Shown piece after piece: positions 40,377-43,631 of a stretch of 64,000 nucleotides of DNA; within the stretch, counting starts at the first letter, position 1; every line of letters begins with the position of its first letter. The notes beneath the pieces are model-generated. The model was not told the DNA's origin, did not search any database, and saw only the letters and a program-made list of their open reading frames with translations. The stretch spans positions 62,001-126,000 of the forward strand of contig NZ_MRTD01000009.1 in the NCBI RefSeq assembly GCF_001956295.1, written 5' to 3'. A program made the position numbers and the translations under genes. This stretch comes from Paenibacillus sp. FSL A5-0031 (GTDB lineage: Bacteria > Bacillota > Bacilli > Paenibacillales > Paenibacillaceae).

Positions 40377-40667
40377 TTATTGAGTAAGCTTCCTTATCCA
40401 CTCTCTAGCGCCGAATGCGATGACCCGGTTATGAACCTTAGGTTCTGTTAGGTTGCAGCACTTCAACAATTCGGGCAGCGCATGTTCTTCAAGAGCAGCC
40501 TTGGCAGCTTCCATATAGCCCTTATATTTCGAAGTACTGCCGCCAACCACGATGACATCTGGATTATATAGATGAAGCAGGTTAGTTAAAGCGTAGCCAA
40601 AATATTGCCCTGCTTGGCGTACAAGCGCAGTCACCTGCGAATCGCCTGCTTCTAGCCGCTCACGCAC
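40377..40667 (-). pseudogene. ROK-family protein remnant (C-terminal third only)
   Basis: 96 codons matching the C-terminal end of ROK sugar kinases/regulators: YFGYALTNLLHLYNPDVIVVGGS is the characteristic helix-strand before the last domain. ROK proteins have about 300-400 residues. Upstream of GTG 40667 the frame reaches a stop within 3 codons, no SD is present, and no ATP-binding DxGxT motif can be found. It is best read as a decayed gene cut by deletion. The edge at about 40665-40680 carries the palindrome CTATAA-A-TTATAG. Confidence 0.75.
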
Positions 40668-41746: not shown

Positions 41747-41797
41747 AAATAGACCGAAACCATTCGATGATGTGGTTCTCGGTCTATTTCCTATTTT
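41747..41797. terminator. Bidirectional terminator
   Basis: AAATAGACCGAAACCA and TGGTTCTCGGTCTATTT pair across the space between convergent genes ending at 41733 (+) and 41817 (-); A- and T-rich flanks lie on both sides. Confidence 0.8.
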
Positions 41798-41816: not shown

Positions 41817-42800
41817 TTAGCCCTCCTCCAAATTGGAGTAGTGTGTAACCCGGTTTCTCCCGCTTTTTTTGGAGTTGTAGAGCGCTTGATCAGCTTTTTG
41901 AAGCAAAGATTGATCGGTATCCTCCTGCGTAATCGTTGCTGCGCCAATACTAACCGTCACATGATATTCTCCCCAATGAGCTGTTTCAGTCTTGCTGCGA
42001 TACCTTTCGGCTGCTAATATGGCATTCTCCTGATTGGTATTAGGAATAATAATGACGAATTCCTCTCCTCCAAATCGAGCAACAATGTCGTCTTCTCTTG
42101 ACTCGGATACGAGTAATTGTGCTAGCTCTGTAAGAACTAAATCACCGACCGGATGCCCATAGGTATCGTTAATGCTTTTAAAACGATCAATATCAATAAT
42201 TAAGAGTGAAAATGGCAGCTCAGTTTGTTGAAATAATGCGATATTCGCGAGTAAGCTCTCTTGAAAAAACCTGCGGTTTTTGAGCCCAGTTAAAGGATCG
42301 GTTGATGCTAGCTTTTCCAACTGGTGGTTCAAATTTAGCAATTGCGATTGTTTGCTTTCATATTCTTCATGCAGGAGTTCAAGCTTTTTGTTGGCTTCAT
42401 TGGTTGCCCGATAAAGCTCCTCCAGCTTTGTTTTGGTTTGCAGGATATCGTTCTCATGTTCAATGCGTTTGCGCATTTCCACAACGACACAATCAATAAC
42501 AATTTCGCCATCCCGTTCGTGACGAATACCGTTTAACAGTACAGGCACATCAAGCTGATCTCTCGTTTTAAACGAGAAGTACATTTCATTCACATGCCCA
42601 TACAACTGGATATACGGATAAAAATAGGTATGAAAAAACAGTTTGTTCGTAAGAGACATAGTGGTTTCAATATGTCGGTTCAGCAGCTCCTGCCGGTCAA
42701 AACCAAGCATGTTTAACAGCGTTTGATTGAACTCTAGAATGACCCCTGTACTTGAAATAGTGAAAAATCCACAGGGGGCATAATTTAACTGGGTATCCAT
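41817..42800 (-). CDS. PAS-GGDEF diguanylate cyclase
   Basis: 327 residues: an N-terminal PAS domain (about 5-115, YAPCGFFTISSTGVILEFNQTLLNMLGFDRQELL), a coiled coil (about 120-165) and a GGDEF domain (about 165-325). The active-site motif is intact (FGGEEF) and is preceded five residues upstream by RxxD (REDD), the product-inhibition site. It should therefore make c-di-GMP under feedback control. The gene is downstream of, and 24 nt from, an RsbQ-like hydrolase gene on the same strand. ATG 42800 has GAGAGG about 10 nt upstream; a longer TTG start at 42821 lacks an SD. Confidence 0.88.
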   Translation of the reverse strand: MDTQLNYAPCGFFTISSTGVILEFNQTLLNMLGFDRQELLNRHIETTMSLTNKLFFHTYFYPYIQLYGHVNEMYFSFKTRDQLDVPVLLNGIRHERDGEIVIDCVVVEMRKRIEHENDILQTKTKLEELYRATNEANKKLELLHEEYESKQSQLLNLNHQLEKLASTDPLTGLKNRRFFQESLLANIALFQQTELPFSLLIIDIDRFKSINDTYGHPVGDLVLTELAQLLVSESREDDIVARFGGEEFVIIIPNTNQENAILAAERYRSKTETAHWGEYHVTVSIGAATITQEDTDQSLLQKADQALYNSKKSGRNRVTHYSNLEEG

Positions 42801-42824
42801 GTTACGAATGCCTCTCTTCAAGTT

Positions 42825-43631
42825 CTAGTTGGTGGATAGATATTGTTTGATCAACTGCGTCGTCTCTTCGGGATGACTTAAGTGCGGGTAATGGCCTTTT
42901 GCGAGCATATGCTGAAGAGTACTGTTTTTAAGATGAGCATGCAAATAGTCGCCAACCTCAATAGGAGCAATGCTGTCGTCAGAACATTGAAGAATGAGGG
43001 TAGGGACGGTTGCATGAATGAGATCAGCGCGACAATCGGATAAAAAAGTTACCTCAGCAAATTGCCTTGCAATATGGGGATCTTTAGAGCAAAAGCTTTT
43101 TTTCAATTCGCTAGTTAATTCCTTGCGTTCTGGATTTTGCATGACGATTGGCGCAAGGTAGCTCGCCCAGCCAATAAAATTCATTTGCATCATATGAAGC
43201 AATTCATCAATTTCATGCCTATGGAAACCTCCATAATAATCAGGAAGGTCGTTTACATAACGCGGAGAAGGACCAAGCATAATGATGTGTTTAAAATATT
43301 CCGTATTGTGAATGGATGCAAGCATCCCAATCATACTGCTAACGGAGTGGCCAACAAATATAGCATCCTTTACATGCAGCGTATCCATAATTTCAATGAC
43401 ATCTTGCGCATAACCATGTAAACTACTATATTTTTCGGGTTCATAATAATCAATTTGCGATTCTCCAGAACCTACATAATCAAACAAGATGATGCGGTAA
43501 TCATCTTCAAAGCTCGGGACGATGTAGCGCCACATATCTTGATCGCAGCCGAATCCATGAGCAAATACAATCGTTTGTTCACCTTTGCCTAAAACATTTA
43601 CGTTATTGCGTACTAGGAAATCGACAGTCAT
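42825..43631 (-). CDS. rsbQ: RsbQ-like alpha/beta hydrolase
   Basis: 268 residues, the size of B. subtilis RsbQ, with close similarity along the whole chain: FAHGFGCDQDMWR, ILFDYVGSGES, GYAQDVIEIMDTL, nucleophile Ser in VGHSVSSMIGMLASI, CSKDPHIARQFA, LILQCSDDSIAP with the acid, and KGHYPHLSHP with the His. RsbQ works with the PAS phosphatase RsbP to activate sigma-B under energy stress. Here the gene downstream encodes a PAS-GGDEF protein instead, so the hydrolase probably supplies a ligand to that PAS domain. ATG 43631 follows GAGAGGGG at 7 nt; the frame is open to 43718 without an SD. Confidence 0.88.
   Translation of the reverse strand: MTVDFLVRNNVNVLGKGEQTIVFAHGFGCDQDMWRYIVPSFEDDYRIILFDYVGSGESQIDYYEPEKYSSLHGYAQDVIEIMDTLHVKDAIFVGHSVSSMIGMLASIHNTEYFKHIIMLGPSPRYVNDLPDYYGGFHRHEIDELLHMMQMNFIGWASYLAPIVMQNPERKELTSELKKSFCSKDPHIARQFAEVTFLSDCRADLIHATVPTLILQCSDDSIAPIEVGDYLHAHLKNSTLQHMLAKGHYPHLSHPEETTQLIKQYLSTN

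Follow-up and report, generated by a model that had tools for sequence, protein, structure and literature searches.

The window, i.e. the whole 64,000-nucleotide stretch of Paenibacillus sp. FSL A5-0031 DNA analysed here, contains an rsbQ homologue followed directly by a gene for a PAS-linker-GGDEF protein (Table 1). The catalytic motifs are present in both products, five of the nine residues typical of RsbP are kept in the PAS domain, and the pairing is conserved among relatives. We propose that the pair would act in the cytoplasm as an RsbQ-PAS sensing module with a diguanylate cyclase as its output; the hydrolase would probably act through the PAS domain and the linker on c-di-GMP synthesis, and we put the probability of this reading at about 0.8. 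RsbQ-PAS modules with GGDEF output, the main idea of the original prediction, were already described in PMC3183031 (Nadezhdin, Brody and Price 2011), so that idea is in print; the pair is a further example of the class described in 2011 and not a new principle.

The gene pair and its domains

Table 1. Features of the rsbQ-PAS-GGDEF locus, in window coordinates.
Feature	Position	Strand	Details
rsbQ homologue, alpha/beta hydrolase	42825..43631	-	268 aa; ATG 43631, stop 42825; triad Ser96, Asp219, His247
PAS-helical linker-GGDEF protein, putative diguanylate cyclase	41817..42800	-	327 aa; ATG 42800, stop 41817
RsbP-type PAS domain	42456..42800	-	residues 1-115 of PAS-GGDEF protein; C10, F55, Y59, P62, E72, P86
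Long helical linker, predicted, PAS to GGDEF	42312..42476	-	residues ~109-162; AlphaFold model
Intergenic gap, 24 nt	42801..42824	-	GAGAGG upstream of PAS-GGDEF ATG; ribosome-binding site by eye
Inverted repeat, possible shared terminator of convergent genes	41747..41789		by eye

As had been claimed beforehand, 24 nt separate the rsbQ stop from the ATG of the PAS-GGDEF gene; this is also the median rsbQ-partner gap in 140 GGDEF rows, a set that includes repeats between collections and relies on estimated starts. Pfam analysis of longer open reading frames with TTG starts gave Abhydrolase_1 (2.1e-18), PAS (1.5e-6) and GGDEF (3.4e-46). A promoter scan of the locus stayed at chance level (7 matches vs 6.8), and a terminator scan with a loop limit of 8 found none. 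Elsewhere in the window, a 96 amino acid open reading frame (40377-40667, minus strand) resembles a ROK-family sugar kinase at its C-terminal end but lacks the front part, and looks like a gene remnant.

Among solved structures, the hydrolase comes closest to B. subtilis RsbQ (1wom, E 6.8e-100); Olei00960 ranks next, ahead of the plant proteins KAI2/HTL and D14. The description "very close RsbQ homologue" is correct as far as family membership goes, and the protein is ~53% identical to the RsbQ adjoining an RsbP-type protein (L081). Because of the ranking of solved structures, the kinship with the karrikin and strigolactone receptors to which attention had been drawn also holds. Among the top matches listed, KAI2/HTL chains scored 216-223 bits and D14 ~185-190. 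Window hydrolase and plant receptors share the alpha/beta hydrolase family and an identical triad, which is intact in the window and invariant in all 159 distinct RsbQ sequences of at least 240 amino acids compared (from 195 matches, many of them repeats of one species between collections). They differ in the partner, which is a bacterial PAS protein here and an F-box protein in the case of the KAI2/D14 receptors.

In ungapped RsbP numbering, the PAS domain of the window carries C10, F13, M48, K53, F55, F56, Y59, P62, E72 and P86. Nine characteristic PAS residues are given in PMC3183031, namely C10, L13, L48, Q53, F55, C56, Y59, E72 and P86, the consensus being partly by residue type. Five of these are identical in the window (C10, F55, Y59, E72 and P86), and the four that differ (F13, M48, K53 and F56) are of similar or listed type. 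According to the same paper, loss of F55, Y59 or E72 is null in B. subtilis; all three are identical here. M48 and F56, neither of which is the B. subtilis RsbP residue, recur in 92/114 and 111/114 GGDEF-partner PAS rows, respectively. As a stand-in for RsbP we used the PAS-SpoIIE protein adjoining RsbQ in L081, which carries all nine B. subtilis RsbP residues. Its PAS domain is identical to that of the window at 46 of 113 positions and, when used as a query against the 7.8-Mb genome, retrieved the window protein (E 4.5e-26) as the only match below E 1, the next lying at E 1.01. The class residues kept and this match place the PAS domain among the relatives of the RsbP-type PAS, a kinship on which the original prediction depended. 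The DIT motif at the PAS end is absent from the window protein, which reads VVVEMRKRIEHENDI there, and phmmer (E 0.01) found no solved structure for its PAS domain. Cys104 of the protein (42489-42491), which lies outside the nine residues studied in PMC3183031, is conserved in 108/114 GGDEF-partner rows and 18/27 PAS-only rows.

The window protein has a GGDEF domain where B. subtilis RsbP has a PPM phosphatase, and Pfam gave no match to a SpoIIE phosphatase domain. The GGEEF motif is intact and an RxxD site lies five residues upstream (REDD-IVARF-GGEEF), both as originally read. Among the relatives, GGEEF was present in 90/90 cyclase open reading frames of at least 300 amino acids, and RxxD in 67 of the 90, being absent from 23. 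With both an active site of the GG(D/E)EF type and an inhibitory RxxD site, the protein is a putative diguanylate cyclase, which would be expected to be active. The linker is predicted by AlphaFold to be one continuous helix of 54 residues (386-439 of a read-through chain), at the place where the modules of PMC3183031 have a coiled coil. The genome as a whole holds 20 GGDEF and three PilZ matches.

An RsbP-like role with Sigma-B as output was considered and appears unlikely. No sigma factor in the genome exceeds the NCBIfam Sigma_B cut-off (best 206 vs 315 bits), although three SpoIIE-type matches lie over their cut-off, and an RsbV/SigB output is therefore not expected.

Conservation of the pairing and the RsbQ tree

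The pairing was followed through 295 Paenibacillaceae genomes, in which RsbQ was accepted at E 1e-50 or better. At this threshold RsbQ was found in 118 genomes (126 matches) and in none of the other 177; the unit is therefore dispensable in the family. All matches except G487 were read, and in 125/125 loci a PAS sequence related to that of the window lies downstream of RsbQ (recognised by profile in 124 and by eye in L158). The outputs of these partners are GGDEF in 97 cases, none in 27 (PAS-only) and a PAS-PAS-histidine kinase in one. The 97 consist of 90 open reading frames of at least 300 amino acids and seven that are short or were missed by the ORF caller, some of which may be intact genes since the caller uses the first start codon. 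The pairing is thus conserved, as the original prediction had supposed, and judged by sequence it is not a matter of chance. Stop codons inside the aligned stretch were seen in five of the 126 family matches (G404, G380, G383, G415 and G394).

A scan of genome contigs yielded 51 loci. In 40/40 Paenibacillus and Cohnella loci, tblastn placed a PAS-GGDEF gene, or no less than the PAS portion of one, immediately after RsbQ. The remaining 11, from Actinomycetota, Bacteroidota and fragments, comprise five GGDEF-EAL, two PPM, two kinases, a truncated RsbQ fragment (L056) and a locus that lacks PAS (L049). The histidine kinase label of L043 was given by eye, with no profile match. L049 (6-4202) belongs to a metagenome bin and has RsbQ at the contig start followed by two further genes, presumably a metallo-beta-lactamase-fold protein and a catalase-peroxidase-like gene, and no PAS.

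Across the class, RsbQ was present in 34/299 genomes, with 17 matches outside the Paenibacillaceae; their partners are PAS-GGDEF (11), PAS-PPM (3), PAS-PAS-histidine kinase (1) and STAS proteins (2). Nine RsbQ matches that had no called PAS open reading frame were excluded from the PAS counts. When these were inspected, L158 was open with PAS-GGDEF, L047, L052 and L055 had GGDEF-EAL matches, L045 and L048 PPM matches, L095 and L096 STAS proteins, and L049 none. Beside rsbQ, the PAS-GGDEF gene is seemingly interrupted by a deletion or frameshift in L016 and L198, L027 and L182, L037 and L160, and L150, which may be decay or assembly error.

Clustering of open reading frames from 41 window-type loci gave rsbQ and PAS-GGDEF clusters that each span 38 of them. 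The next most common neighbour family was found in 21, at scattered distances, and the flanking genes vary. A larger operon was rejected, since no flanking gene is common to more than 21/41 loci.

A tree was built from 103 RsbQ rows, near-copies of GGDEF rows having been thinned, by a quick search with SH-aLRT support only and a midpoint root. The window falls within a lineage of 61 rows (SH-aLRT 85, below 95) which spans three family codes of the class and comprises 58 GGDEF, two STAS and one row labelled GGDEF-EAL. This last label (L094) derives from an EAL match in its 2.6 kb, and the partner is a PAS-GGDEF protein of 347 amino acids. A second lineage of 32 rows (SH-aLRT 88, again below 95) unites the Bacilli PPM (3) and histidine kinase (2) rows with all 27 PAS-only rows. 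Actinobacterial and Bacteroidota rows, with PPM, histidine kinase and GGDEF-EAL outputs, lie outside both. Output type changes nine times over the 103 rows vs a shuffled mean of 40.9. Because the tree sets the GGDEF lineage of the window apart from the Bacilli PPM/histidine kinase/PAS-only lineage, the link to GGDEF appears to be an old one in Bacilli. The sensing unit had been thought to be re-used for setting c-di-GMP; an RsbP-type PAS with a GGDEF output is indeed what we find, but "re-used" is misleading here, the GGDEF lineage being old on the RsbQ tree. One might still picture a recent local swap, in which an RsbP-type gene of this lineage traded its phosphatase domain for GGDEF, and the occurrence of one PAS type with differing outputs in related bacteria would agree with it. 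Such a swap is nevertheless highly improbable given the place of the window inside the GGDEF lineage, apart from the other Bacilli outputs (SH-aLRT 85 and 88), and the small number of output changes compared with the shuffled mean.

When 114 GGDEF rows were compared with 36 rows of the PAS-only, PPM or histidine kinase types, the clearest separation in RsbQ came from columns 248, 150, 220, 183, 200 and 230. Column 248, which adjoins His247, is Y or N in 114/114 GGDEF rows vs C, F or L in 36/36 others, and column 220 adjoins Asp219. On the PAS side, positions 50-67, the predicted F-alpha helix, account for seven of the 14 columns that differ most. These group differences may be plain descent, since the groups compared are largely clades. 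The GGDEF and PAS-only groups, differing beside the triad and in the PAS F-alpha helix, appear as if mutually insulated.

RsbQ-PAS pairs without an attached output

Twenty-seven RsbQ genes of the Paenibacillaceae have as their downstream partner a short PAS protein (111-224 amino acids) without output (L087, L088, L089, L090, L103-L111, L113 and L115-L127). The two genes often overlap, and the median distance between them is 1 nt (29 rows) vs 24 nt for the GGDEF pairs (140 rows; repeats included in these counts). L48 is present in 27/27 of the partners, Y59 in 21/27, and F55 and E72 in 17/27 each; some of them are degenerate, since class residues are missing in part. Pfam found no PAS match in L087, one of two PAS-only partners scanned. 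Nine PAS-only pairs tested, which were hand-picked related genes, are under purifying selection (dN/dS 0.073-0.348), the values being rough because dS exceeds 1 in five of the nine.

Just two PAS proteins without output are mentioned in PMC3183031, which gives a contig end and a frameshift as the causes. For the present set we rejected frameshift artefacts as the explanation, with 23/27 loci having no match to GGDEF, PPM, histidine kinase or EAL in the 2.6 kb of same-strand sequence that follows (tblastn with one query per output type, which would miss more distant types). At the remaining loci, three have PPM in the next gene and one a histidine kinase match at 1.1 kb. In L118, L126 and L127 the PAS-only gene is followed by a homologous separate gene, the L118 copy of which is a receiver-SpoIIE (receiver-phosphatase) protein by Pfam. 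In each of the eight genomes that carry two RsbQ genes, one belongs to a GGDEF pair and the other to a PAS-only pair.

Perhaps RsbQ-PAS can be a free-standing sensor without an attached output, a suggestion that we make tentatively. An output-free unit would need to signal in trans, and hydrolase plus PAS alone would therefore be the whole receiver. Action on c-di-GMP is not a necessary property of an RsbQ-PAS pair, given that 27 of the 125 family partners lack an output and another one is a histidine kinase.

Other partner types were also seen. In two genomes of one genus code, RsbQ is followed by a STAS protein and not by PAS (L095:9102-10865, plus strand; L096:195-2032, minus strand); these STAS partners look RsbR-like, Pfam giving STAS only. 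RsbQ followed by a PAS-PAS-histidine kinase occurs in Bacilli at L078:2307-3737 and L114:3610-5049; PMC3183031 lists kinase outputs in Gram-negative bacteria.

Proposed mechanism and related systems

In the mechanism that we favour, the hydrolase would bind or turn over a small molecule and would touch its partner at the PAS F-alpha helix. The resulting change would travel via the helical linker to the GGDEF dimer and alter c-di-GMP synthesis, with product feedback possibly operating at RxxD. We infer the direct contact, the dependence on the triad and the signalling through the linker from B. subtilis RsbQ/RsbP, which has in common with the window the RsbQ family, an RsbP-type PAS and adjacent genes. 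In that organism F55A and Y59A disturb the contact with RsbQ and F55A abolishes signalling, changes in the RsbQ triad are null, and RsbQ is needed for RsbP signalling (PMC3183031). An AlphaFold model of RsbP in PMC12143880 has RsbQ between the PAS domains and the linkers.

Our own AlphaFold runs, on a read-through chain of RsbQ and PAS, gave no confident placement of PAS relative to RsbQ (pTM 0.62 for 440 residues and 0.68 for 392), although in both runs RsbQ and PAS each fold well (pLDDT 87.6 and 87.5). No interface is claimed because of these pTM values, which are about the share of RsbQ itself; the runs used shallow alignments of a monomer, and contact is neither supported nor refuted by them. 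The lack of a confident interface in the two models would suit a simpler scheme, in which PAS regulates the cyclase by itself and the hydrolase, a metabolic enzyme, is linked to it only by the common operon. Many PAS-GGDEF proteins function without a hydrolase. We nevertheless consider this scheme unlikely, as a PAS partner accompanies RsbQ in 125/125 loci across output types while the other neighbours change, the window PAS retains the F-alpha residues with a role in the B. subtilis RsbQ contact, and RsbP signalling there requires its RsbQ.

Within the sensing-module reading, two models are set out in PMC3183031, delivery of a product to PAS or the hydrolase as a receptor. The original prediction took up the first when it spoke of RsbQ as the supplier of a PAS ligand; that is one of the two, with the receptor model standing beside it and neither proven in the available text. 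The second would make the hydrolase the sensor, as KAI2/D14 are, with its occupancy read by PAS and no product passing into it. We regard this as a possible sub-case, somewhat doubtful. KAI2/HTL and D14 are the nearest solved relatives after Olei00960 and, of the three best separating RsbQ columns (248, 150 and 220), two adjoin His247 and Asp219, both of which would be in keeping with a receptor. These three columns could, on the other hand, reflect ligand choice or descent, the comparison being largely between two clades; the other top columns (183, 200 and 230) are not beside the triad in sequence; and the PAS fold could still accept a ligand.

The sensing module is best compared with the 45 RsbQ/RsbP-PAS pairs of PMC3183031, which have PPM, histidine kinase or diguanylate cyclase outputs, the cyclase combination occurring in both Gram-positive and Gram-negative bacteria. 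The cyclase modules described there resemble the window in the order of hydrolase then PAS, the N-terminal RsbP-type PAS, the predicted helical linker, the GGDEF domain and most class residues. Only M48/F56 (compared with B. subtilis RsbP) and the host genus were found to set the window apart from that class as described there, and "Paenibacillus" has no occurrence in the main text of the paper. The RsbQ-PAS/GGDEF link is repeated in PMC12143880, which also cites a Moorella system with an RsbU-type N-domain on GGDEF. This is alike in that a stress-partner protein acts on GGDEF via a helical linker; it differs from the window in that the partner is the kinase RsbT and the N-domain is another one. 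In the open-access literature we found nothing on RsbQ in Paenibacillus or on RsbQ with a stand-alone PAS, and RsbQ together with cyclic di-GMP only in PMC3183031. In 2011 it was not known which signal RsbQ-PAS modules read (PMC3183031), and no ligand is named in the available text of PMC7522486 (2020), a review of the SigB side, or of PMC12143880 (2025).

RsbQ is a bacterial cousin of the karrikin and strigolactone receptors, and a cyclase output offers a simple c-di-GMP readout for ligand hunting. The new material lies in the relatives, where the output-free pairs and the RsbQ-STAS pairs deserve a second look, the former providing a minimal system, of just two proteins, in which to study binding and structure.
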